A stretch of DNA of 64,000 bases. Origin: Nitzschia sp. pyKryTriq1. Taxonomy: Eukaryota; Bacillariophyta; Bacillariophyceae; Bacillariales; Bacillariaceae. This document shows, in pieces, positions 1 to 41,972 of the stretch. The notes below the pieces were generated by a model. The model saw only the letters and a list, made by a program, of their open reading frames with translations. It did not search any database and was not told the DNA's origin. The translations under genes and the position numbers were made by a program. The stretch covers positions 1,450,722 to 1,514,721 of the forward strand of contig OY101121.1 of NCBI GenBank assembly GCA_956465555.1, in the 5' to 3' direction. How positions within the stretch are numbered: the first letter of the stretch is position 1; each line of letters begins with the position of its first letter.

Positions 1-1860
1 CTTGTAGTCCAACGCAAGACATCTGAGGGACGTCATCCTTGGCGAGTACTCCAAGGCTTGAGTTTTCTCGCGACTCAATCTCCAAAACTGAAGCAGGACG
101 ACACACCTTCTTTTCTGGATTGAGGCCATGTCCTTCCACACAAGCTGCCACCTCTGGATGTCCTCGGCAATAGACAACCTCACTACCCTTGTAAGGGTAT
201 TGGTAAGATTTCATCGTGGCGCTGTCAAAGAAACGCAAAGGTGACCTTCCATCCAGACTGGGTAGTACTCGTATACGGATCTTAAGTGCAAAAGTTGCCT
301 CATCGTCAAACCATTGTGCCTGTGACTCGAGAGACTTGAACGCAACTACGAACTGCCAAGGAAGAAAGAAACCCCCTCGTGCCTAGAAAGAGGAATGAAC
401 ACTTGAAAGTGAGTGCTGAAAAGTCTTCTTCAATTAAAAGTCAGACAGGGTATGTCTTTCTCACCTCTTGGTAGTCTCGGATGCCTTCAAACCCCAAGTC
501 TGTTAGGCTTCTCAAAAAATTTGCGCGGTTCTTATTGGAAGTAAGGTGCTCAGCTGGATCATGCAGCAACGGCGACTGACCAACTTGAGCGACAACTATC
601 CCAGTGTCATTCAATGCGCGCGGAAGAGATCGCAGGAATGGACCACCGTCATAAAGCGCTTCAACAAAAGAAATCTGAATCTGAGGGTCCCTAAAAATAA
701 AAGGCCAAAATCATCTCACTGCCTGTCAGAAAACATCAAAATAGTAACGGTATAGATCAATCCTTCCACTCCAAAGCACTTACAGAGCATCCATGATGAT
801 GACATCAAATGATTCTTCAACACGGTCCTCCTCATTCCCACTAAATCGATCAATGAACCACGCAAATGCATCTTCGCAATACAGTTCAACTCTTGGATCC
901 TCAAAGCAACTGTCAGCGCTGCCCTCAAGCATGCTACAGTCGCTCCAATCAGGTAGATACTCTCTCGACAGTTTTACCATCTGCTCGTCAATTTCGATCA
1001 TGACAACCTTCTCGACTGTTTTATGTTTGAGTACTTCTCTCAATGTTGCACCTTCGCCTCCCCCAATAATGGCAACGCGTTTTGGATTGGAATGGGCAAA
1101 CATGGCTGGATGAACCAACGCCTCGTGGTAGGCTGCATCACCTGACCTTCTCGATTGCATCACTCCATCAAGAAAAACTATACGATCCGGCTGAAAAAGC
1201 TCTGGATGGTCCGCTTCGTAGGATCCGTCGTTTTTCAACGACTTCTCGTACCCGTCAACGCTTTGAGTCACAGGCAACAATACATCATAAATGTCAACAC
1301 GCTGGAAATCAGTTTGCGCGGATACAACCTACCAAGGACAAGAACGGAACGTTAGTATGTCACACAAAATATTCATGAAGATGTGACATGATTGACGATG
1401 TCTAACCGTTACCTTTTCTTTCATATCTATCATTTCACCGATCGGAAAGGCATAGAAATCAGTGGCCGCGGAATCACCGCTTGTGTCTTCGCCTGAAAAT
1501 CCTCGGAGCTTGTGAGCCCAGATCGCATGAGGTTTCTGATCGGAGCCCTCATTTGCAATACCAAAGAGCCTCTTAGCCACAGGGACAACAGGCAACAGCG
1601 ACTCATCTCCACATGTGTACAAGTCCAGGGTAATAACTCCCTCGACAGGCCAGGTGTGGAATGAAACGTGACTTTCCAGTAAGACTCCAGCGCAGCTGAC
1701 TCCGCTCGGTTTGAGACCGTGACAATGATACGACAGCAAAGTCAAACCGCATTCTGCGACCAGATCCAACATTGCGTGGGCCAGACGCACTTGAGAGTTG
1801 AGGAAGTCCCCCTTGACATGTTCGATGTCCATGAGCAAGTGTTGACCTTGTGGAAGGTGC
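1..1860. repeat. Direct repeat, left copy (pairs with 3656-5515)
   Basis: Every base I compared matches 3656-5515 at an offset of 3,655, except one A/T difference (1789 against 5444) that changes Val to Glu. The identity includes introns as well as exons. It stops abruptly after 1860, inside the first coding exon just upstream of the HLPQGQHLL segment. The left end runs off the window. Confidence 0.95.
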
Positions 1861-2291
1861 TCGGATTCATCGTGAAGTAGAGAATTATTGACTTCTTGCA
1901 AATTTGGACGAACTTCGTGGCACTCATTATATGGGAGATCAACGCATTGCCTTCTCCCTTCCTCCGTAACAACCCAACGAGAATTGGCCACCGACCTTGC
2001 TGTGTCAAAATGTTTCGAAGCATACACCGTGGGTGGCAAAAATTTTCCTAAAGGGAGGACAGGGTTAGGAAGTTTCAAGTTAAGAGGACTTTCCAAGCCT
2101 TCAGCGTTGACGCTTGCTCTTTTTACACTGCGCACGAGATAGACTTTTGCAGACAGCCCAGTTGTGAAAGCTATAGTGGCACTAGTAACCAGGGTCCAAA
2201 GAACAAAGAGAAGTGGTACTCCGTCGCCCTTTTTATTGTCGTTGGGACTTTTCGACATCTGTCTACTTCCTTCTAAGGATGGTTTGCACAT
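1..2291 (-). CDS. AdoMetDC-spermidine synthase fusion, copy 1 (3' end outside window)
   Basis: Exons read as complement(<1..382, 465..690, 784..1328, 1413..2291), with GT-AG introns. ATG at 2291; a second in-frame ATG lies 11 codons in. A hydrophobic segment at about residues 26-48 suggests a type II membrane anchor. The first catalytic part is the bacterial-type S-adenosylmethionine decarboxylase (SpeD), with the pyruvoyl-forming ESH motif followed by HTWP and YTCG. The second part is a spermidine synthase fold with GGGEG for decarboxylated AdoMet. Together they could make aminopropyl donor and transfer it to an amine. Such fusions were described in diatoms and linked to long-chain polyamines of biosilica (established for the family; inferred here). 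The last exon is open at base 1, so about 380 bp of coding sequence present in copy 2 is missing. Head-to-tail with copy 2. Confidence 0.88.
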
Positions 2292-3169
2292 GATCTCAAT
2301 GGATGAGGTCTAAAAGCATAATAGTATTTTGTGAGCCACTCTCTCTGATGGTGCTGTTCTATCTTCCCCGTTGCTTACTTGCGTACTTGGTAATCATTTT
2401 TTGTCTGAAGGCGGGAACCTCGCATCTCGGAGAAAGAAAGATCCAAAAAGCAGCACGTGCCGGCCTCCACCTCGTTCTTATAGATTTCGCGTGCTGTGCC
2501 CTCCTGCTTACTGCTACCGGTATCCTACCGGTACCTTGTTGAGGTACCGGTACATAAAATTTCTTGTACAGCGTACCAGAAATCGCGCGTATCTCTCTGT
2601 AGTAGAGAGTGATTAGATAGACCCCTCCTGCAGCATCCTATTTAAGGTTGAGAGCTCGTTTATCTCTGTCGCTACCGGTATATCGGTAGCACTGATGCAT
2701 GGCTCGTTTTTACTCTTCTCGAAAGAATTTTTTTAATTATGCCCCACATGAATGAAATAATATTCTTGCACGTGCCATTTATCTCACTTCTTGTCTTTCT
2801 TCTTCAGCACGTGCTGTGCAAGTGTGGCGCGTGTGTGGGTTGGAATGTGGTACTACATACTGCTACCAGTAAGTACAGTAATAGTACTACATCACTAATT
2901 TTTATGGCAAGCAAAGCAATCAGTTGTATGAAATCGTTTTATTGTACTCGGCGCTGCCAGCTATGCATGGAAGGGCATACGTGCTTCCTGGCAGCAGCCC
3001 TATCTTTTGTTGAATGAATCATCCATCGCGCAAGTGAGCTCGATGAAGCATGCAAGCACAGATCTACTGAGGTTCTATCGTCTCTGTACGTACCGGTAGA
3101 CTACAATACCAGTACCAGTACAGTAGATGTGCAGATTAGCGCTGATAATCCCCCGTACGTTTGAAAAAA

Positions 3170-3192
3170 GTCCACTGATTCAATCAGTGGAC
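3170..3192. repeat. Perfect 11-bp inverted repeat with 1-nt centre
   Basis: GTCCACTGATT, a single C, then AATCAGTGGAC. It follows an A-rich run and lies about 240 bp beyond the stop codon of fusion gene copy 2, on the 3' side of that gene. It could be a 3'-end RNA hairpin, or a chance or mobile palindrome. No function is shown. Confidence 0.7.
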
Positions 3193-3281
3193 TGTGCTCT
3201 CGACCGTCAAGGTAGTAACTAAATTAGACAGGGCACTTTCGCTGCTTTGCGATATACCGGTATACTACTACCACTACCAGT

Positions 3282-3306
3282 AGAGAGAGAGAGAGAGAGA
3301 GAGAGA
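3282..3306. repeat. GA dinucleotide microsatellite
   Basis: Uninterrupted run of GA dinucleotides in the spacer between the two fusion genes. Similar CT/GA runs recur at 10437-10468, near 39764-39781, near 39947-39968 and at 45079-45098. Confidence 0.9.
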
Positions 3307-3428
3307 TGATTATTGATCATACCGTAGGGTACTACTTGTACTACCGGTACCTGTAGACAAGGTCGATACAGGTACAGTACAGTACTGGTGAAGGGAGCAG
3401 TACTGGTACACATGATATTCTTGACAGG

Positions 3429-6003
3429 TTATGGAATGGCTCTGGCGTAGGACGAGTAGTGACGACTCTGCCTCTCCGCCGCAGGATTGTAGCCACCCGT
3501 TGTTTCCTCAAAAAAACTAAGAAAAGCTGGTACTGCCGAGGTTATAGCAGAGATAGCGGTCGCCATGTTATTACCCAAGAGCGAGGCACAGCGCTGGTCC
3601 ATTTCCGTTATCAAGTTGAACGACCTTGGCGGCATATAAATTATGGGAACTTTTTCTTGTAGTCCAACGCAAGACATCTGAGGGACGTCATCCTTGGCGA
3701 GTACTCCAAGGCTTGAGTTTTCTCGCGACTCAATCTCCAAAACTGAAGCAGGACGACACACCTTCTTTTCTGGATTGAGGCCATGTCCTTCCACACAAGC
3801 TGCCACCTCTGGATGTCCTCGGCAATAGACAACCTCACTACCCTTGTAAGGGTATTGGTAAGATTTCATCGTGGCGCTGTCAAAGAAACGCAAAGGTGAC
3901 CTTCCATCCAGACTGGGTAGTACTCGTATACGGATCTTAAGTGCAAAAGTTGCCTCATCGTCAAACCATTGTGCCTGTGACTCGAGAGACTTGAACGCAA
4001 CTACGAACTGCCAAGGAAGAAAGAAACCCCCTCGTGCCTAGAAAGAGGAATGAACACTTGAAAGTGAGTGCTGAAAAGTCTTCTTCAATTAAAAGTCAGA
4101 CAGGGTATGTCTTTCTCACCTCTTGGTAGTCTCGGATGCCTTCAAACCCCAAGTCTGTTAGGCTTCTCAAAAAATTTGCGCGGTTCTTATTGGAAGTAAG
4201 GTGCTCAGCTGGATCATGCAGCAACGGCGACTGACCAACTTGAGCGACAACTATCCCAGTGTCATTCAATGCGCGCGGAAGAGATCGCAGGAATGGACCA
4301 CCGTCATAAAGCGCTTCAACAAAAGAAATCTGAATCTGAGGGTCCCTAAAAATAAAAGGCCAAAATCATCTCACTGCCTGTCAGAAAACATCAAAATAGT
4401 AACGGTATAGATCAATCCTTCCACTCCAAAGCACTTACAGAGCATCCATGATGATGACATCAAATGATTCTTCAACACGGTCCTCCTCATTCCCACTAAA
4501 TCGATCAATGAACCACGCAAATGCATCTTCGCAATACAGTTCAACTCTTGGATCCTCAAAGCAACTGTCAGCGCTGCCCTCAAGCATGCTACAGTCGCTC
4601 CAATCAGGTAGATACTCTCTCGACAGTTTTACCATCTGCTCGTCAATTTCGATCATGACAACCTTCTCGACTGTTTTATGTTTGAGTACTTCTCTCAATG
4701 TTGCACCTTCGCCTCCCCCAATAATGGCAACGCGTTTTGGATTGGAATGGGCAAACATGGCTGGATGAACCAACGCCTCGTGGTAGGCTGCATCACCTGA
4801 CCTTCTCGATTGCATCACTCCATCAAGAAAAACTATACGATCCGGCTGAAAAAGCTCTGGATGGTCCGCTTCGTAGGATCCGTCGTTTTTCAACGACTTC
4901 TCGTACCCGTCAACGCTTTGAGTCACAGGCAACAATACATCATAAATGTCAACACGCTGGAAATCAGTTTGCGCGGATACAACCTACCAAGGACAAGAAC
5001 GGAACGTTAGTATGTCACACAAAATATTCATGAAGATGTGACATGATTGACGATGTCTAACCGTTACCTTTTCTTTCATATCTATCATTTCACCGATCGG
5101 AAAGGCATAGAAATCAGTGGCCGCGGAATCACCGCTTGTGTCTTCGCCTGAAAATCCTCGGAGCTTGTGAGCCCAGATCGCATGAGGTTTCTGATCGGAG
5201 CCCTCATTTGCAATACCAAAGAGCCTCTTAGCCACAGGGACAACAGGCAACAGCGACTCATCTCCACATGTGTACAAGTCCAGGGTAATAACTCCCTCGA
5301 CAGGCCAGGTGTGGAATGAAACGTGACTTTCCAGTAAGACTCCAGCGCAGCTGACTCCGCTCGGTTTGAGACCGTGACAATGATACGACAGCAAAGTCAA
5401 ACCGCATTCTGCGACCAGATCCAACATTGCGTGGGCCAGACGCTCTTGAGAGTTGAGGAAGTCCCCCTTGACATGTTCGATGTCCATGAGCAAGTGTTGA
5501 CCTTGTGGAAGGTGCGTCATTTCCTCCTCATCCTCCGTCGATACTTCATCGTGAGAAGCAACACCAGTTGCACGAAAATCCCCTTCTTCATCATTCTTGA
5601 CATCCGCAACGCATTGTTGTTGTTCTCCTACTGCGTCAGTAGTAACCCAACGAGAGTTGATATCCGAAATTGTTGAGTCAAAATATTTTACGGTGTACAA
5701 CATCTCCGGTGGACCCGCTTTTCCCTCTTTGACTACAGTATTTGGCAGTGCTTGAACTTGAACTGGTGTCCCCCCATTATTATTTGCGGCATGGGTTTCG
5801 TCGACAAAGACTTTGAAAAATGCTTCCAGGAATTGTCCTTCGATAAGAACGCAAGATATCTGACCAACTGCGAACGCTACCAGTGTGCTCGAAAGCAAGC
5901 TCAAAACAACGAAACGAGTGGACACCTGTACAAAGAAATGGTTCTTGGAAGTCCCTTCTTTATTTTCATGAATACCACACGATCCTGATTGATTCGACAC
6001 CAT
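3429..6003 (-). CDS. AdoMetDC-spermidine synthase fusion, copy 2 (complete)
   Basis: Exons complement(3429..4037, 4120..4345, 4439..4983, 5068..6003); introns 82, 93 and 84 bp, all GT-AG; 771 residues. Residues 30-50 form a membrane anchor. Residues about 164-312 are class 1b AdoMetDC: Ser226 in ESH (pyruvoyl precursor), His231 and Cys246 sit at +5 and +20 from the serine, exactly the spacing of bacterial SpeD Ser63/His68/Cys83. From about residue 313 comes an aminopropyltransferase with GGGEG at 400-404, and DALDPQ where canonical enzymes have DSSDP. The last roughly 190 residues, starting near MKSYQYPYKG, form an extra cysteine-containing C-terminal region that I cannot assign. Inferred role: bifunctional production and transfer of aminopropyl groups, probably on an endomembrane and possibly for silica-associated polyamines. 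Confidence 0.9.
3656..5515. repeat. Direct repeat, right copy (pairs with 1-1860)
   Basis: Second member of the near-identical 1,860-bp pair. It spans part of exon 4, exons 2 and 3, all three introns and the AdoMetDC half of exon 1. Beyond 5515 the two genes remain recognisably related at protein level (for example NSRWV in both) but are clearly diverged. Confidence 0.95.
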
Positions 6004-6492
6004 GGTGTGGTTCTTTTGATAAGTCTGTCTTGCTGTCTCGATCTATTATCGTTGTCAGGCTGCGAAAAGATTGCGAAAAGTGGATATGCGCCAGGATGTT
6101 TCATCTGGCGACTCCTCATTGTCGTCATCATCAAATACCAGGTATTGGATATTGGAAAGGGTGTTCGGATATTTATTCTCTGATGAACCAGTATGCTTCG
6201 TGCGAGTATTATGGTACCTGGTACCGGGAAACGTACATGATCATGCACAACCCTCTCATACTGTAGTCAGGGATCAATAAATACGAGGGATGTGCCAAGC
6301 CGCGCGACGGCTCGTGAAAAGAAAAATTCCCTTCGTGGCAGAAAGCAAGGCATCTTCATCACGGCGCATCGCGCACAATTTTTCTCCGTGTTAAATCCCC
6401 GTATAACGCCAAAAGGTGGGCGACATTCGCATCTCTTTTTTCGTAGAATTGTACACAAATTTAATACTACACGTTGAAATCCTACCAAACTC
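6004..6492. other. Upstream region of fusion gene copy 2
   Basis: No gene recognised. Short open frames on both strands lack family features. It presumably holds the promoter of the copy 2 gene, which begins at 6003 on the minus strand. No clear core promoter motif is seen. Confidence 0.45.
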
Positions 6493-6946
6493 CTACGTGT
6501 CCCCCGAAATATTCCTTCCACAAGCACCGAGAAAACCACGATCAAAATCAAAGGCTGATCGATGCGTTTTGAACTCTTTCGTTAACCTTTCAATGTCGTC
6601 GAGCAACAATGGTCCCATGGCGACTGTATTGTCCCCCTCTCCCTGTTGACGGCCTAAAAAGTGGTACGAGCAAATGTAAGCCCTTGCTCGGGCAGAAAAC
6701 CTTGGCACTCGTCGCGTCGTCAAGTTCTCACGCCCGATGCACTCTTTTACCAGGTTGCGGAATGACGCTATCGACTTCTTCAGCTGCAACAGTCTCCGTC
6801 GGTAACAACCCTTGGAGTGGGCCCACGAATACTGCCTCGACTCCTTCTCCCGCAATCTCTGCATGGAATTTAGGTGTAAAGTCCACCTTTATTCCAAGGG
6901 CTTCCGCCATCCGGGTTGAAGGAATATAGCGTGCAATAGAGTGGTC
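6493..6946 (-). pseudogene. DDE transposase C-terminal relic
   Basis: Minus-strand frames give, in order, a PKFHAEIAGEGVE segment, then YSWAHSKGCYRR, FSARARAYICSYH and KEFKTHRSAFDFDRGF. This matches the C-terminal layout of IS630/Tc1-like and related DDE transposases of fungi and algae (PKFH.E.N.IE..W...K..R, then RR..YI..Y, then KSHRR). The first and second parts lie in different frames, so there is a frameshift within GAGGCAGTATTCG near 6825. A stop (TAG at 6947-6949) closes the 5' side. The N-terminal and central catalytic parts are absent. An alternative gene model with an intron joining 6910-6755 to 6660-6493 is possible but would discard the conserved YSWA to ICSYH section, so I prefer a decayed element. 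Confidence 0.6.
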
Positions 6947-10921: not shown

Positions 10922-12643
10922 ATGAAGCGCTCCTCTGCAACACCTTCAAAGTCCTCTTCCACCAATGCTTTCGCGTTGTTAATGGGAAGCCAGACAAAGA
11001 AAAAGAAACCGCAAAATAAAAGTAATAATAATACTGGTGTGAGTCGTTTTGTGCCGTGCCCGGCAGGTTGTGGAAGACATGTCTTGGAAAAGGATATCAA
11101 TGCCCATTTGGACTTGTGCATTTCGAATGATGGCTCTGCCCCAGAAGTGAGCGAACTATCTGTCCAGATACAAGAAGGACCAACTACTATCGAACAGTCC
11201 TCGGAGAATGTGTCCACAATCACCTCGGCAGGAACAGAAAAGAAAGCAAGTACATCGGAACGTACGACCATCACCAGCGATGAACACGCCAATGCATTTG
11301 CCCATATGATGAAGCGATCGGCCAAGGTCTTTACTTCAGGTCACGACGTTGTCAAACTAGCCCAACGTTGTCATTTGCACACCAACGGCAGTCTGAGTGT
11401 CACGTGCTATAGTACAAATCCCGGTCTTTCGCAACCCGACGATATCAAGTGGAGTACCAATATTCAACTCAAAGCAAAGAGGAAAAGCGCTACCCCCAGT
11501 AGCAGTAATGATGATGACGCCAGCCCTGTACCCGCATCTGTGGATTTATCCTTGAGCTCTGCAATTGCTAGTTCTCCTCGGAAGGTGCGCCTGGTCCGTC
11601 GGCATTCTCGATTCTCCATACCGGTATTGAAATCCATTCTGCAAAAAGCCATCCGTCGCCGCAAACCACTACCGGCGGTGCGTGTCGCCATGGAATTGGC
11701 GGATAAGTCTCTGGGGGACTTACTCCGTCGTCTACCTATTATCATCTTGGAGGACTCGTCCCTGCACCCATCCTTTGCTTTGCTGACCTGGTTGATGGCG
11801 GCGCATTCCAAAGATTTTGAACCCAATCAGTTTCTAATGACGAAAATCCTTTGTATAGTCTATGAAATGGCCTCGTGTCCTTGGCAGGACCACTTACTTG
11901 ACAACGACAACGACGATGGTGAACCAATGGATTTTGATGGACGACTCCTCTCCTTTGAGTCATATCACAAACCTGGACTCGACAATCTGCTGGAGGACCG
12001 TGAGACTATCATCTGGTCCATGCTAGTGCGATCGCGATATGGGGGGATGGGAGGTGATATGGCAATGTTGCATTCGTACGCCAAAGAATGGAATCAACGA
12101 TTTGCCAACGATTGCGAGGTCCCTAATCCAGTCAAGCAGCGAGTGGCACCATCCTTGCCGGAAACAGAATGTCTGCGTTGGTCCACGTTGCCAACAATAA
12201 TCCACCAAACTTCCATTCGTCAAAGTACTGCGCGAGTGCAACCAATGGTAGAAAAGGGTTTGTTGGCATTGACTTTTATGGACATTACTACAGAGGGCGT
12301 AGACTTTCATTGTTCATCCATTCTGGACATGGTGACAACCGACCAAGACCTCGTTGACACTTGTCTCGCTCAGCTCGGCGAGATCACAGCAGCGATAGGA
12401 CTTGGACCCATACCAACAGCTTCCAACGAGAAAAGACCATGGTTAGAGCGGGTCTTGAAGCGCTGCATGTGGAATTACAGCGCTGGTGTTAATCGAAGGT
12501 TGCCACTGATAATAAGCGATGGACGAGAATCATCATCTTCCTCCAACAAAAAGGATGATCCGCTGGAAATGATTTGGCAAAACCTAATTTTGCCCAAGAC
12601 CAAAGTATTTGCGGAACAATACGTGAAAGAGCGGCTCCCTTGA
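10922..12643 (+). CDS. UBZ4-type zinc-finger protein, probable DNA-damage factor
   Basis: 573 residues, intronless. A UBZ4/RAD18-type zinc finger spans residues 46-66 (Cys46, Cys50, His62, Cys66; VLEKDINAHLDLC), a ubiquitin-binding module typical of DNA repair and translesion proteins. A short motif, NAFA followed by two residues and Met, appears twice: NAFALLM before the finger and NAFAHMM around residue 126. The middle region (LKSILQKAIRRRKPLPAVR, then LLRRLPIIILEDS) is helical and recalls the C-terminal helical domain of WRNIP1/MgsA-type clamp-loader relatives, but no AAA ATPase motifs are present. A nuclear, ubiquitin-dependent role in replication stress is inferred. The exact family is not identified. 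Confidence 0.75.
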   Translation: MKRSSATPSKSSSTNAFALLMGSQTKKKKPQNKSNNNTGVSRFVPCPAGCGRHVLEKDINAHLDLCISNDGSAPEVSELSVQIQEGPTTIEQSSENVSTITSAGTEKKASTSERTTITSDEHANAFAHMMKRSAKVFTSGHDVVKLAQRCHLHTNGSLSVTCYSTNPGLSQPDDIKWSTNIQLKAKRKSATPSSSNDDDASPVPASVDLSLSSAIASSPRKVRLVRRHSRFSIPVLKSILQKAIRRRKPLPAVRVAMELADKSLGDLLRRLPIIILEDSSLHPSFALLTWLMAAHSKDFEPNQFLMTKILCIVYEMASCPWQDHLLDNDNDDGEPMDFDGRLLSFESYHKPGLDNLLEDRETIIWSMLVRSRYGGMGGDMAMLHSYAKEWNQRFANDCEVPNPVKQRVAPSLPETECLRWSTLPTIIHQTSIRQSTARVQPMVEKGLLALTFMDITTEGVDFHCSSILDMVTTDQDLVDTCLAQLGEITAAIGLGPIPTASNEKRPWLERVLKRCMWNYSAGVNRRLPLIISDGRESSSSSNKKDDPLEMIWQNLILPKTKVFAEQYVKERLP

Positions 12644-12689
12644 CCCGACTTTCTCCTCCTTCCTGTGTACTCCTAATGCACTTGTTGTA

Positions 12690-14064
12690 CTAAGTGGCAG
12701 ACGACTCCTCTCGCAACAACGGATCCACCAAAACGTCATCTCGCCATCGTACAGATCTGGGAGGGCTAGCCGCCGATTCTAGGGGGTGAATGGTAGGTGG
12801 CAAGTTTGGTGTCGCCTGCGTGATTAGTGATCCTTCTTCCTCCTCTTCCCATCGAATCTCGACACGCTCTAGACCGACCAACGAGAGGTAGCTGTAGTCC
12901 AGCAGCGCAATAATGGGAAGAATTTCGCACACAAAGAACATCAAGAGAAGCACCGCAAAAGACCAGACGGGAGTATTGGAGTCCTGAAGGAGCTCAATCT
13001 TATAGACAAAGACAAGAAGAGTTGCAAGGCCCCAAATCACGCGTGTTAGCGACCATAATGACATTGCCTTGCTGACCCGAGTCAAGGAGACACGTAGACG
13101 CTGGGAACGATACGGAAATCCCTGTACATCGTAAAAAGAAAGAAACCGTGTGAGAATATCACAGTCAAGCAAATGCCCAGCTTGTCGTGTCCCTTCTACA
13201 ACTTCTCACGTACCGAGAATCGAATGTTGAGATATACATAAAAGATCAGCACAAGGATCACTGCTGTAAAGTTAATTCCTGTGATGCCCACATAAATTAC
13301 ACTTCTGTACATCATAAAAAGAAAGAAACCGTGTGAGAACATCACAGTCAAGATAATACCCAGCATATCATGTCCATTCTACAACTTCGTCCTTACCTGA
13401 CCATTTTGGTAGGCGGCGCCAAGAAGAGGCTTCCATAGAGGGTGAGTTGTAGCGCATATAATAGTGAATTGAATATCATGAAATAGATGAGCCACGTCCT
13501 TTTGAGGGTTGCCGCACTCTCAGTGTGCAATCGAGCCTTGACAAAACATTCCGCCCACACCAGGGTCAACAAGACGTAAGTCGAAACCACCATACAGTTC
13601 GGCAAATCAAAGAGTACGGTCATGGACTTGTCATAAAAGAGCTGGTGCTGGTCTCTCGGTATATCCCCATTATGGTGTTCTGATGAGGAGTCGTCACTGC
13701 TCCCGCTCGACTGGGGCGACAATTTGTAATGCGCTCTCACATTCGCAATGTTCATGGCCGCCACTCCCAAAATAGTCATGATGCGCACCACGGACACCAA
13801 TGCCACGCTCAAGAGGAGTAGCTTTTTCGTGCTCAATTCGGGACGATATCGGTTCAGGACTGCCAGCTTGCGTTTGGCGAGGATCAAACAGAAGATGTAC
13901 AGGACCGCACATATCAAGAGCGCGGGCGTCAACACATCCACCGTCACGGTCGGATCTCCTCGTCGATTATTGCTGTTGCTGCCGAAGATTGATGACAGAA
14001 CCGCCATCGTCCCGGCCATATCGACATCATCACCTGCAGCCGAACTACCAGTGAGATGCACCAT
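12690..14064 (-). CDS. TOM1/THH1-like multi-pass membrane protein
   Basis: Exons complement(12690..13121, 13214..13304, 13397..14064), 396 residues, ATG at 14064. About seven hydrophobic segments are visible, including LLICAVLYIFCLIL, LLLLSVALVSVVRIM, VVSTYVLLTLVWAECF, FMIFNSLLYALQLTLY, the middle exon VILVLIFYVYLNI, and two in exon 3. The order, with a cytosolic KRKL loop and a W-ECFVKAR segment, resembles the THH1/TOM1/TOM3 and GPR137 family of endomembrane seven-pass proteins (by eye). The C-terminus is acidic and probably cytosolic. Both introns are 92 bp and 86% identical to each other. The gene starts 487 bp from the divergent methyltransferase gene. Confidence 0.78.
13122..13213 (-). 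repeat. Introner-like intron, copy B
   Basis: The second intron of the TOM1-like gene. It matches the first intron (13305-13396) over its whole 92-bp length without gaps, with 79 of 92 bases the same by my count. The match ends at the splice borders; the 91-bp exon between the copies is not itself duplicated. Confidence 0.85.
13305..13396 (-). repeat. Introner-like intron, copy A
   Basis: The first intron of the TOM1-like gene (GTAAGG donor, TACAG acceptor), near-copy of the intron at 13122-13213. The acceptor half is most alike, including the shared ACACGGTTTCTTTC pyrimidine tract; the donor-proximal bases differ most. Confidence 0.85.
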
Positions 14065-14551
14065 CTTGTCGAAAGAATGAAGAGAAAACAATGAATGATG
14101 GTAGATACTTGCTTTTTGCTATGCTGTGTTGGTGATGGTTGATCATCACGACTCAACATCATCAAGCATCAAGCATCCAAAGAAAACATCATCAACGCAT
14201 TTTAGTACACGTAGTAGTGTACTGTACCGAAACAAACGGGAAAAGCACGTTCTTCTTTCATCGCGGCGTGCGTTGGGCTCGTAGGAAGAAAATCGACTCC
14301 TGCGACCACATTGTCCTTGTTCGACTCCTCCGACACATACAGTCGTTCGTCCATAATACCGCACATGCCGCATGCCACACAAAAAAGATTTCGACTTTGA
14401 ACTTTCAACTTTCAACACTTTTTGCTTCTTTATCATCATCGTTTTGTTGATGACCATGTTGACGTCGTTGATCCTGTCAAGACAGTCAGTCCTACGTACA
14501 GACAGCGCTGTGAATGATTAAAAACGAGGCGAAGACATTGACACAGAAGGC
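14065..14551. other. Divergent promoter region
   Basis: 487 bp between the start of the TOM1-like gene (minus) and the methyltransferase gene (plus). It must carry both promoters. Short overlapping frames on both strands have no family features. No clear core promoter element is visible. Confidence 0.5.
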
Positions 14552-22198: not shown

Positions 22199-25100
22199 AT
22201 GCAACCATTGCAGCTGCTGAAGCTGAGATTGGAGCGCTTGCTGCTGTGGCTGTCCCGGCGCGTGGAAGTGCTGTTGTTGAAGACCCAGTAAGGCCTGTTG
22301 CAATTGGGGATGTAAGGATGGATCGAATTGCTGCTGCTGTGAGATTTGGGGCTGTACCACATAGTGCTGTGGATTCAGTTGGGCCAGCTGTTGCTGCTGC
22401 AAATAACCTTGCGGATATATTTGCTGGCCATGCAATGCGTTCGGTCTGTGTTCGTAGGACTCTTGTCTGCCAGTCGAAGGAATGTTGTACCCATTTTGTC
22501 CGCTTGAGCTATACTCTGACATGTAAAATTTTTGACCAGCTGGTTCGCCTATAGCCTGGTTGTTATGCAGATTCGATGAAGGCAATCTTGCATCTGCATT
22601 GTGATATCCAGATTGTTCTGAAGGAGGTATCTGGCGGATATTGCGGCTGTCGCCTGATGGCATTCGTCGTGATTCGTTCGGAGAGTCAAAGATGTCATCA
22701 AGATCGCTGCCACTTGCATCGAATTCTGAAGAAGTCTCTCGTGATGCATATCCATTCATCCCACTAGGGCTAGCCATCACCATTGGACTGTTTCCATATT
22801 GTTGCTGCCTGCGTTCCTCCATCGCGTTGTTGAACACATCTCGATGCGCTGGAGGCTGGCCAATTGACGTCCTATTACCCTGGCCAGGCTCGTTGAGGCT
22901 CGGGTTAGCCTGGGAATTGGCAGGCAGTGAGCTAGACATTTTTTGAAGAGCCTCCGTTTCGCAAGAGGTGATTAATTTCGCAAGATGCTCGTCGTTGGTT
23001 TGAAGGGTGTTCCGCTTTCGCAGAGTAACCGATGCGTAATTCAACCGCATCATGGTAGTTTTCCTCATGTCCGATAGCTTTGATTCTGGAATGGGATAGA
23101 CCCCTGCTTGGAGACATTTCTGGATCAGCTCTGCCAAATCCACTTGGTGTTGCATTAGAATGGCATTCGAGGTTTGCTTCCACTGATTGAGTTCGCGCTC
23201 CAGCTTCGCATCAGACGATGGCTTGGCTTGACCGAACGATTGTTGCTTTTGTAAATTGTTGATCGTTGCGCCAACAAGCTCCTTCGCCGCCTGTATTTTA
23301 GCCGCTTCCGTCTTTGCCAGCTCTGATCTCGCCCTCACTTCGGCTGCCTTTTGGAGGGCCCTCTTTTCCGCCATTTCTGAGGCCTGTTTGGCCATCTCTT
23401 TCTCCTTGCGGTCTCTTTCCGCCTTTTCCTGTTGTTGCAAATATAGATTCCTTTTGTTGATCTGCTTCTGTCTTCGTCCGAATGCGTCAAGGATCAATCC
23501 TGACACGTCCAAGTGTTGAGACGAAATCCAACACCCTTTTCGTTTCCCCTTGTTGACCACAAAATGTTCTACAATTCCGTTTGATGGATCTCTCTTCGTC
23601 ACTTTTACTACCTTCTGAATCTGAGCTTTACCGCGTCTGGCAACATTTTCACATGATTGGATAGTCTTAACAGGTGTTAGCATGTAGCCAATAAACCAAC
23701 AAACATACACATTTTCCCGCAGACTTCTTACCGACCGGTCCAAGAATGACTCTAGCACCCGAAGCTGAAGGACTAGTCCTTCGAAATCGTAGCATTGCTC
23801 CGTTTCTTTCCGCCACACATGAGAAAAGCTGACCTGCCCAACTTCATGGCTTGTTTGGTAGGCGACATGCGGTGCTTTAACAACGCCTCCATTACGGCCG
23901 AGCCGCTTCATCTCGTGCGGCGGTAGATTACCCATAGTCGCAAAAAGAATCCGCCCGCAGATTGGCCACTCGAGTTGTTTCTGGAATCCTCCTTTTACAA
24001 CTTTCTCGATTTTCGGTATCTTTCTCAGTTTAAAAACTTCTATGTGCGTCTCGATACTGTCTGACGCAGTAAGAGGCCTCTTGGCGCTCAGCTCCTGCGG
24101 CGGTGCAGCGTCTCCCGGCGTGTCCTTTTCCGTGACAACAGGAGCGTATCTGCCGGCAGATCGACGAGTTCGGCGTCTACTTGATGCAGGAGTGTCCAGT
24201 CGTCTCTTTTTCTTAGGCCGTTCAGCTTTCTTGGCAGCGGAATCATTATTGCTTACGTCGGGAGAAACGTTCGATGTTGATACCGCCAGATCAACAACCG
24301 ACTCATCTGGTTGTTTTGCTTGTGTCATAGTTCCAGGCGATGATTCGGGAGCCGATCTGCCCTGGGTTTCGATATCCATTTGCTTTACCGGCGAGGAGTC
24401 TTCGACGATATTTTCAGAACCAGTGGTTCCGCTGTTTGGAGTCGGGACGTTCAATCTCACTTGTACCGACACAACTTCATTCAGTGGGTCAAAATGTTCC
24501 GCTTTGTTCTCTTCAGTCGATCGATTTAGGGCTTGGTATCCCATCGTATCGACATGTACTCGGTTGCTGTCAGGCAGAACGTGAGTACCTCCGGTAGGTT
24601 CATTCTTTTCGGAAAGCCTTGGGCGACCGTCGTTCCCCGTTTCTTCCTGCGTCGCTGCGCCGGGCATAGGGATGTACGAAACTGGTGAATTGGTCACGAT
24701 CTGGGATAGGTCATTATCTGGGACTAGGGATACGGAGGACTGTATAGCAGCTTCACCACTTCCGCCCTCAGCATTTGGATTTGACTGTTTCGCCCCGACT
24801 GGTGTTGGCGCCTCATTGGCGATTTCCGTGACTGCTGTGATGATCACATTCTGGGACGTGCCATTGTCAGGTACCAGAGGTGCGGAGGAACTTGCAGCTT
24901 CACCGCTCCCACCCACAGCGTTTGGATTTGACAGCTTCATCTCGACTGGTGCTGGCGCATCGTTGGCGATTGCGGTTGCCGTGACTGGTTTACATGTCAC
25001 ATTTTGGGACATGTCATTGTCCGATACCAGAGGTGCGGAGGAACTTGCAGCATCACCGCTCCCACCCACAGCGTTTGGATTTGAAAGCTTCATCTCGACT

Positions 25101-28100
25101 GGTGCTGGTGCATCGTTGGCGATTGCAATTGCCGTGACTGGTTTAATGGTCGCATTTCGGGACATGTCATTGTCCGGTACTAGAGGTGCGGAGGAACTTG
25201 CAGCTTCACCGCTCCCGCTCTCGGCGTCTGGATTTGACAGCTTCACCTCGCCTGGTGCTGGCACCTCGTTGGCGATAGACGTGACTGATGCATCGTCCAC
25301 ACTCTGGGACGTTTCATTGTCCTGGACCAGGGATACGGAGGACTGTTTTGGACCCTCACCACTCCCACTCTCAGCGTTTGGATTTGATATTTTCGCCTCG
25401 ACAGGTACTAGTGCACTGTTGGTACTCAGGGATATGCCATTCTTTGGGAGCGGGGACACTGAGGGCTGTTTTCCGATTTCGCCACTCCCTGAAGTAGATT
25501 GAGGAGCAATGCTACTGTCAGCATTTTGATTTGACGGCTTGACCTGAGATGAAGAAGATGCCGCATTGCTTGCTCTCGCACCATCACCTATTTCGAGAAT
25601 TGTTGAGATGCCCGGCAAAGGTTTTTCGACATCTTCAGGCTTTGGAGGGGCAGCAGCTTTGATTTGCTTTCTCTTGCTCCTTGACGCCACGAGCGGTCTA
25701 CTGATATGCTCTCGGATTCCTTGCACGAAAAAATCCAAGGAGCAGCCTTCTTTCTCGCATACTCTCAGAATCGAATCTTCGGGAGTTTTCTCCCACGCGC
25801 GTTTTCGACTTTCTTGCTTCGCTGTCCAATCAGAAGGAAGATCTTCAAAATGACGGTCCGTATCAGTGACAACTTCGTCTCCTTTGATATGCGGGTTGTG
25901 AAACCACCCTTCTTCAAAGGCTCTCGAGTGGACACAATCGACAAGTTGCAGCAACAAACGAGCAAGCCTATTGATTGATCTTGCTTTTCGGACATTGTCG
26001 CGCCATTTCTCGTGCTTGGTCTTTTCCGTTCCTGCTTCCCAGAATTCGTTCACCAAACAAGCCTTTCGCAAAACGATTTCTAATCGGCTCATATATCCTT
26101 TGAATAAATTGTACGGATCAAAAAGGACCGCCTCGGAACGAAGGTTTTTTGATATCAGCACGTCGACGCTGAAATCCCGAATAAGACTGTCCGAAACCCG
26201 GTAGGTGCTACTTTTGGTGCATTCGCTCTCAAAATCCATTGTCATTAGTTTGGGTACCTGCGCACCCCCACCAGCGCTCATCCAAAGAGGAATTGGCGCC
26301 TTGCTGTACTTGGAGCTGTACATATTCGGGTCAAATGATTCAAGTGGCATCAGATATTGACGCAAAGGCGGAAAGTGAACAGTGGTTGAGTCCCCATCAT
26401 TGGGAATTTGCACTAGCGGCCATGCCTTCTTTATTGCGGGATCCATTTGATCAAGGATCTGCTTGACCACGTCTTTCGACAAGACAAGCGGCGAAGACTC
26501 TGCTCGATCTTCCGAGCGAGAGAAAACAAAACCATGAACCACCAGAAATTCTTTTCCTTCTGTCATCGAAGCAATTGTACTTTTCTCTTCCGGTAATGCC
26601 AAAGACATCACACCCTGTGCTGTTGACTGGGTTCCACCTGCGATAAGCATCGAAGTGGTCCCTTCTTGAGGATGATGCGAGGGGAACGCTGAAGGTCGCC
26701 ATAGGTCTATTCTGCTCCCCCCAGGCATAGTGTAGGGGGTCTGGGATAGATATTCAGCGTTCAAGATGCTTTGACGGCGCAGTTCCTCCATTTTTAGGGA
26801 TTCTTGGATGTCATCCACTGAGACCCAGTCGAGGGACGCTTTTGCGCCCCCTCGAAGCGGTCCGAAAAATGCTGGGTCGACCACTCTACATTCCGGGCAG
26901 AGCCATTTCCCATCGGGAAGTTGCTGTCCCATGGTCATGTCTAGACAGCCCCTGTGGTAACTTGACACGCAACCATCGCAGCAAAGTAACTCTCCTTCGC
27001 CGCCACACACGCCGCACTCGTCACCGTTGTCCAGATTTTCAAACTCTTCGTTGGTGGGCCATGCCCCATATGGGACAGTGTAGCAATCACCAACTGCTTT
27101 TCGTGTGCTGAATTCGGCGGATATTCCTTCTATGGACAAGAGCTGATCAATAAGAAATTCCAACATTATCACCTTGTCCTTTGGGGATAGCCGAAAATAT
27201 GGGACACCCGCTCTCAACTTTTTGAGTGGTTGGAAATGAATCCACTGCTGATCATACATCTTCTGTTCAAAATCGTCCGTGGTATCCTTGGGGTTGGTCG
27301 TTCTTTCTTTTGCATTGGTGTCATCCGGAGACTCTAACTCGGCGCCACACATGAAACCTCTCAAAGCCTTGGCAACGTCATCCTCCACCTCCAATCCTTT
27401 CCGCTTTGGTTCGCTCTGTGGTGGTTTGGATGCCGGGGCGCTACGATTAGCAGAAGCCATGCTACTCAAAATCGCCATTTGCTGCAAAAGAAGCTGTTGG
27501 TGCTGGTGGTGCCTCTGCCTCATTGATAGAGCATAGGCATCCATTACGCCCCCAGCTTGTGACAAGTTTAGTCCTCCCGCCGACATTGCAATGTTCTTAT
27601 TTTGACCCCCTGGATTTTGCATTCGCGTCATTTGTTGTAGTTGCTGTGCTTTCAATGCCTCTGCCATTTGTAAAAAATGCGATTGACCATGGAGCATACT
27701 TTTTTGTGGCAACGTGTCGGAAGAAAGAGGAAGCTTGGGACGGGGCTGCTGTTTCGATGAGTAGTTAGAGCCTGAGTGGGTTTGCTCCGAAGATGGCGGC
27801 GACTTGCCTGAGATGGGCAACCGCCTTCGATTGTTCCCTTTCAAGCCAGATTGGGGTTGGATGGGAGCACTGTTCTCCTCCGGGGAAACTTTGCTGCTAG
27901 AACTCTCGACAGTATTGAGTTGAGATGAATATTTCTCTTTAGCCTCGTGCTTTTCATAATCCATATCCTGCAAAGGCGCCGATTTTGGTTGGGGTTCACT
28001 TTGACTATCGCGGAACAGATCTTTCGTTACAGAAGAACCCACCTTTAGATCATTGAATTGTGGAATTTCAGCTTTGGTTGCCGTTGCTGGATCCATACTC

Positions 28101-40266: not shown

Positions 40267-40737
40267 TCATTGGCTCGGTACATAGTACCAGTACCAAGTA
40301 CAGAACACTACTGTACTTGTACATTATTGGGAAAATGTTACGAAAGTAACATCAGACAATATCGGTCATAATTCACGCTATTTCAACGGTGCGCACCAAA
40401 ATACGTCAAAATTCTGTCAGGTACAGGTAACATTTTATTGCTGATTTCTGCCGCGGTGGCAGAGGTATTGCCCCAAAATAAGTAACACGCGGAGTCAACA
40501 TTTCTGCGCGAAAATGTTGACAAAATGTTACTATTGCTCGACGTATTTTTACGTACTCGTACTATCAGTGCCGTCGATGTTATGTAACTCAACAAAAAAT
40601 GATCAATTTCATGATCCGAGACCGGCGCACTGAGGGCATCCGAACTGGCATTGGTCGTACTAGTAGTCATAACAATAGTATGTACTCGTATTTTATTGAT
40701 ACTGGACTACTACTTGCTCGTAGTAGTACTACCACTT

Positions 40738-41300
40738 GACTTTGAATTTCTGGGGGCAGACGACGAGCAGTGTACTAGTAGTAGCTCCTCGACTAGAAGA
40801 CCGTTTGGAGCCGTTCTTTTTTCATTAATTGTTTTATAAATATGTCAAAGTCGATATTATTGAGTTTGACTACTTTTAGACGACGGAGTCAAAAGATAGA
40901 ACCGTCGAGCAAAATTCAAGCGCGAGCGACGAGCAGGTCTACTGGTAGTAGCTACTCAACTAGTAGACCATTTTGAGCCGTTCTTTTTGCTTTTGTGCCG
41001 TTACTACCATCCTTGAGTGGTTTGTTTCACGTCTGGGTACTATTTGACTGCGGAGTAAAGAGATAGAGTCGCCGGTCTGTTGGATTGGTTTGAACTTTGA
41101 ATTTTTTGAGGGATCTACTAGTAGCGTCTACTACTAGTAGCTTCTCGACCACTGGACTGTTTGGGTCCGTTCTTTTTTCATTCATTTCACTAATTCTGCG
41201 TGTCGAATGAAATTCTTTAGTTTGGATAATAGTTGAGTGATGCGTCAAAAGATAGAGTCGCCGGTCTGTTGGATCGTTTTGGACTTTGAAATTTTGGGCG
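40738..41300. repeat. Diverged tandem repeat, three units of about 170-190 bp
   Basis: Landmarks recur in the same order: a CTACTAGTAG-type block, GAGCCGTTCTTTTT (near 40808, 40975 and 41164), then AAAGATAGAGTCGCCGGTC (near 40891, 41057 and 41247), then a GAATTTTTGAG-like block. Spacings are about 167 then about 189 bp for both landmarks, so the units are true tandem copies with indels. Transcription or coding is not evident. Confidence 0.82.
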
Positions 41301-41972
41301 TTCGCCTTTCTCTAGCAATTCCTAAGTAGTAAGTTTTTGCACTTCGCGTATTCGCCGCGTCCTTTACCCGTACAAGCCCTTCCCTCTGTAGAATCTGGTA
41401 CAAGGTCTACAGTAACATTTTGTGTTATTACTATAAATACCATATACTTTGACAGTACCGGTACTGTACACACACAAAAGTACAGAACTGGTACTGTACC
41501 ATACAAGGACGACACGTGCTCTTGCTTCTACAGTAAAAGGATATGAGATCTAAAAGTGCGGGTTTTCGATGATGAGCACGTGCTCATTCAGGCGTGCTCC
41601 AAATTGAGGGCATATTTTAAAACTAATGCAAGAGAAATATCCACTATCAATACACGAAAATGAATTAGCCGGTGGAATTAAATAATAAGTCGAAGAACTC
41701 ACCGAATTTGCGCCTTCCCCCCTCGCCCCTCTCGCTATTATTATCATACTGCACGTGCCGGTACACCACCGGTACACTACCGATAACCCGGTACTGTACA
41801 TAAATAATGATCCCTGTCTGGCACCCACCCACTACTGGTACGAAAAATCAGTCTGGGGTTCTCAAATTACTATCGCATCCTTCGCGATCCATCTTCGGAC
41901 TTCAGGTTTTTACCAGTTCCCATTTTCCACAATACACAACAATACACTTCTTTCTTTTTTTACGTTGTCACG

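Follow-up and report, generated by a model that had tools for sequence, protein, structure and literature searches.

Two similar introns in a THH1/TOM1-type gene of the diatom Nitzschia sp. pyKryTriq1 and their probable origin by copying within the gene

The host gene and its introns

The stretch of DNA analysed here (the window) comprises 64,000 nucleotides of contig OY101121.1 of Nitzschia sp. pyKryTriq1 (forward-strand positions 1,450,722 to 1,514,721 of the contig, assembly GCA_956465555.1), and coordinates given without a contig or locus name refer to it. A THH1/TOM1-type gene with three exons and two introns occupies positions 12690-14064 on the minus strand. Exon 1 (13397-14064, 668 nt) starts with an ATG at 14064 and ends before a phase 2 intron. 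This is intron 1 (13305-13396, 92 bp), which reads GTAAGGAC...GATGTACAG and is flanked by the exon bases CAG and AAG. It is followed by exon 2 (13214-13304, 91 nt), the peptide of which looks hydrophobic by eye. Intron 2 (13122-13213) is likewise 92 bp long, reads GTACGTGA...GATGTACAG, and lies in phase 0 between TCG and GGA. Exon 3 (12690-13121) adds 432 nt including the stop codon, so that the joined frame stops at 12690.

Both introns have GT...AG ends on the minus strand and, by eye, a T-rich tract before the acceptor. The removal of each is needed for an open frame. Among five splice models, the sole one that stays open is the excision of both introns, which results in an uninterrupted frame of 396 codons (396 aa). 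The alternative models stop early, at 223 codons if nothing is removed, at 258 if only the first intron is removed, at 223 if only the second is removed, and at 235 if the middle exon is skipped. Judged by their GT-AG ends and by the frame restored upon their removal, the two introns are presumably spliceosomal and presumably spliced.

The assignment of the gene comes from Pfam: residues 148-324 of the joined product match PF06454 (THH1/TOM1/TOM3) with 33.1 bits against a cut-off of 25. Since exon 1 alone gives 31.0 bits, which is most of the full score, homology supports the splice joins weakly, and their main support comes from the splice sites together with the open frame. With the exon 2 piece (30 aa) and the exon 3 piece (145 aa), no Pfam family scores above its cut-off. 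A protein search of the genome at E up to 1 returns three matches, and these are the three exons of the gene itself. A scan of viral contigs for orthologues, based on the peptide of exon 1 (222 of the 396 aa), produced six pattern matches, none of which was confirmed. An Rfam scan of 12601-14100 for intronic RNA such as snoRNA gave nothing up to E 10. Exon 1 also contains a 17-nt inverted repeat (13839-13855 / 13998-14014, 88% complementary) that may be due to chance.

Similarity of the two introns

The two introns can be aligned without gaps over their entire length, and 79 of the 92 positions are identical. Whole-genome BLAST reports the pair over 84 positions with 89% identity (E = 7.2e-25), and the local alignment of intron 1 with intron 2 scores 123, the maximum in 500 shuffles being 23. 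An earlier, sequence-only reading of the window had reported this identity, and alignment, BLAST, and shuffles all bear it out. In the region 12601-14100, the repeat finder recognizes a sole family of direct repeats of at least 14 bases, namely the intron pair; its unit of 93 nt corresponds to the introns plus one base, and the copies are spaced 183 bp apart, start to start. The 13 mismatches are made up of 6 transitions and 7 transversions, giving a K2P distance of 0.157.

The similarity of both introns reaches the exon boundaries without entering the exons. In four comparisons with the exons on either side, exon 2 shows no similarity beyond that of shuffled sequence (p 0.35, 0.84, 0.19, and 0.64), and the repeat finder extends the copies by one base at most. 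That the similarity stops at the splice sites, and that the exon between the introns is not duplicated, had also been stated in the sequence-only reading and holds true. The BLAST match stops 8 bases inside the donor end; the published introner method, as described in passages of PMC9860276, allows 10 intronic bases.

The differences appear to crowd towards the donor end. Four of the 8 donor-end bases differ (GTACGTGA in intron 2 versus GTAAGGAC in intron 1), as against 9 of the 84 bases elsewhere, an excess for which the Fisher p is 0.013 with a cut that was picked after the data had been seen. Divided by half, the mismatches number 11 of 44 positions in the donor half and 2 of 48 in the remainder. 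A permutation over all cuts gives p 0.056 for an uneven distribution, which is suggestive only. With four of eight donor-end bases mismatched, clear similarity is confined to 84 of the 92 bp. Such crowding in the donor half is not what a clean copy of the full length should leave behind, and it may reflect later conversion, constraint, or a donor site that was recruited separately. Of all observations, this difference at the donor end counts most against simple copying of the full length, and one of the two sites may have held an earlier intron.

Copies elsewhere in the genome

The genome searched comprises 40,651,789 bases in 20 contigs. DNA searches with either intron lead to the same two places only, genome-wide, at a sensitivity at which copies of identity below roughly 85% could escape. 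Mismatch-tolerant patterns (up to 3 mismatches) return the two introns alone in three of five cases. The remaining patterns are GAAGTTGTAGAANGGACAYGAN, which with 3 mismatches hits 12 further places as compared to 8 for the backward control, and TTGACTGTGATNTTCTCACA, which hits 11 as compared to 7 for the control. At 10 of these 11 TTGACTGTGATNTTCTCACA loci, the local alignment to the introns is not above the best of 30 shuffles, and the remaining locus (L036) exceeds the best shuffle by 2 points (34 versus 32). The genome-wide search for more intron-bounded copies, which the sequence-only reading had proposed as a check, thus yields no third copy above control level.

A sample of 264 kb, consisting of the window and 20 spaced stretches of contig 1 (~0.65% of the genome), was studied further. 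A profile of the intron pair finds nothing else in it up to E 10, and the best other gapless match to an intron is 44/92. No second copied-intron pair was recognized in a self-comparison of the sample, which is limited to one contig and the window, so that a rare process elsewhere would be missed. Judged by their ends, lengths, and positions, the other repeats in the sample are probably tandem, coding, or intergenic; the sequence read among them was 40561-41400. A home-made intron caller for adjacent-pair counts was discarded: in its strict form it made 11 calls and missed both known introns, and in its loose form it made 188 calls versus 145 in reversed sequence at one cut-off and miscalled the known introns.

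Several of these and other repeats are recorded here in their own right. Starting at the window edge, an 1860 bp direct duplication (1-1860 / 3656-5515) is 99.95% identical and is either a recent tandem duplication or an assembly effect. Diverged repeats at 40739-41295, with offsets of 166 and 355 bases and 65-77% identity, seemingly form about three tandem units. A tandem repeat at 24681-25422 has units of ~150 bp that are 73-79% alike and is possibly coding. A dispersed repeat of ~45-80 bp (80-95% identical) occurs at 3195-3284 of the window, at 4111-4606 of locus L010, and at 6743-6806 of locus L021, and is present on contigs 1 and 7; it may belong to a small transposable element. Locus L012 has long direct repeats at 183-6352, which measure 1.3-1.8 kb and are 90-99% identical. 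On contig 1, four near full-length matches to silicon transporters lie within ~42 kb (275839-317295), and one more is near 80 kb. There are eight silicon-transporter matches in the genome, all above the family cut-off, as would suit a diatom, and one of 14 control genomes gave a match, which is below the cut-off. Silicon-transporter genes may also occur in other silica-using algae.

Origin of the intron pair

The sequence-only reading had named a mobile introner element as one of two possible sources of the pair. The introner survey of Gozashti et al. 2022, as described in passages of PMC9860276, retained only families of at least four introns and dropped pairs with alike proteins; given this cut-off and this removal, a same-gene pair would apparently not be counted there. 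With two similar introns found and a published minimum of four, the pair is below the threshold for an introner family. No copies were found in unrelated genes, both introns being in one gene that is itself without a paralogue in the protein search. A search for terminal inverted repeats (TIRs) found none above chance, the end-against-end scores being 8 and 10 (895/1000 and 396/1000 shuffles do as well), nor was a target-site duplication (TSD) found beyond chance, the longest shared junction word being 4 bases in each intron (reached by 754/1000 and 698/1000 shuffles). At intron 1, exon and intron share the terminal bases CAG, perhaps as a 3-base duplication and perhaps as part of the splice consensus, and there is no such match at intron 2. 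Because the TIR scores and junction words are at chance level, a DNA transposon is not indicated. Among known introner families, passages of PMC9860276 list TIRs in 72 of 177 and TSDs in 49 of 130. The copy at 13122 has a predicted fold, pairing its ends, with a z of -1.86 (8/200 shuffles fold as well), and the copy at 13305 has a z of +0.48 (129/200); a fold shared by the two introns was not found, end-pairing being predicted in one copy only. The mobile element is not sustained, as no other copy of roughly 85% identity or more rises above control genome-wide, TIR and TSD are at chance, and the pair falls short of four introns. What survives of the original interpretation is that the introns stem from one source; an introner family visible in the genome does not.

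The reading that we favour, at somewhat better than an even chance, is that one intron was duplicated splice site to splice site in its own gene, most likely via spliceosomal reverse splicing. In this scenario, the spliceosome would have inserted an excised intron, by reverse splicing, elsewhere in the same transcript (or in its DNA strand). Reverse transcription and recombination would then have made the reverse-spliced copy a permanent part of the genome, and the two copies may since have diverged by 14% and become ordinary introns. Common descent of the two introns by copying is suggested by their similarity; the route would have been spliceosomal, and one of the two positions would be newly gained. 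When a whole intron is copied and no exon sequence comes with it, the copied unit is likely to be one delimited by splicing. Moreover, an inserted 91-nt exon would also shift the frame, which counts for copying of the intron alone. Two homologous introns lie in one gene and the intervening exon is not duplicated, as is looked for in same-gene intron transposition. Paralogous gene copies were considered as the source of the pair and rejected, because the protein search finds just the gene's own three exons. The full-length similarity, the uncopied exon, and the lack of a further copy above control level fit the suggestion, also made in the sequence-only reading, that one intron was copied into a neighbouring site. 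Its description as recent is doubtful in view of the K2P distance of 0.157, and the 14% divergence indicates that the copying event was not very recent.

Several other explanations have to be weighed against within-gene copying. It is possible, though not probable, that the second position already had an intron, which was overwritten with the sequence of the other intron, either by ectopic conversion or by reverse splicing at an already used site, so that content was changed and no position was gained. The four differences among the 8 donor-end bases look as though they were left from such an older intron, but conversion would have had to stop at the acceptor AG. Ordinary gene conversion requires homology at the tract ends. 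We consider it unlikely that the two introns are the last recognizable members of a once-mobile introner family, DNA-type or RNA-type, of which the rest has decayed or been lost. The similarity does cover the whole intron, and fungal introner-like elements rapidly turn indistinguishable from regular introns according to passages of PMC4457414. However, there is no third copy above control genome-wide and none by profile in 264 kb; TIR and TSD are at chance level, though many known introner families lack them too; and two survivors 183 bp apart would be a coincidence.

The short spacing of the introns (183 bp between their starts) makes a local template more plausible and would suit a DNA-level templated insertion, in which break repair or template switching placed the neighbouring intron into an exon and only copies with usable splice sites survived. 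Such an insertion would not predict that the similarity ends at both splice sites without exon bases, which makes it quite improbable. The same spacing and the two direct copies could come from tandem duplication of an intron-plus-exon unit, the exon having diverged afterwards. This is contradicted by the shuffle comparisons, in which exon 2 is unlike either neighbour (p 0.19-0.84 in four comparisons), although exons should change less rapidly than introns; we therefore regard tandem duplication as very improbable and reject it. Chance similarity or an assembly artefact hardly deserves consideration: the former is at odds with the BLAST E of 7.2e-25, and the latter would not be expected to produce 13 of 92 differing bases, an unduplicated exon between the copies, and an open frame around them.

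The copied intron pair is real, rare, and informative, yet of an already described kind. A more speculative view, which we hold to be rather unlikely, is that within-gene spliceosomal copying operates in diatoms without an introner family and that the mobile unit here is the 84-bp body (presumed branch point, pyrimidine tract, and acceptor), with the donor bases supplied by the site. How new introns originate has long been an unsettled question, and pairs in which one intron is visibly a copy of another are rarely seen. The pair described here provides a concrete diatom locus at which orthologues could reveal the parent, the direction, and the date of the copy. Roy and Penny, in a paper of 2007, reportedly argue by its title that intron gain is widespread in the diatom Thalassiosira pseudonana. 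Among the matches listed from the open-access literature, no diatom case of an intron pair within one gene was recognized.

Comparison with known systems

One of the routes of intron transposition set out in passages of PMC3443670 starts with an excised intron that is reverse-spliced into an mRNA, either its own or a different one, after which this mRNA is reverse-transcribed and recombined into the gene. These passages tabulate 14 transposition events, in Mycosphaerella and Oikopleura, and state that there was no in vivo demonstration as of 2012; passages of PMC2891723 and PMC3488318 are also sceptical of intron transposition.

Introner elements of Micromonas and others, as presented in passages of PMC9860276, resemble the pair in that the similarity runs from end to end of the intron and halts at the exons. 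In contrast to them, here there are two copies in one gene, below the threshold of four used in PMC9860276, with TIR and TSD at chance level. The likeness to fungal introner-like elements and to transposition in Mycosphaerella (passages of PMC4457414, PMC3879977, PMC8469720, and PMC3443670) consists of the seamless insertion and of the end-pairing fold, which is predicted for one copy here. The fungal elements, as described there, have copy numbers between a few tens and about 500 and are located in unrelated genes. The fold is not common to both copies in our case.

The Oikopleura dioica pairs are a precedent for the diatom pair. According to Denoeud et al. 2010, as cited in passages of PMC3879977, four nearly identical intron pairs are present among ~75,000 introns of this species, the members of each being in the same gene, and they are ascribed to reverse splicing. 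As in the gene described here, these are pairs and not a family, both members reside in the same gene, and reverse splicing is the proposed route. The differences are that Oikopleura dioica is a tunicate and Nitzschia a diatom, that its pairs are nearly identical as against 86% here, and that the gain of an intron is in our case presumed.
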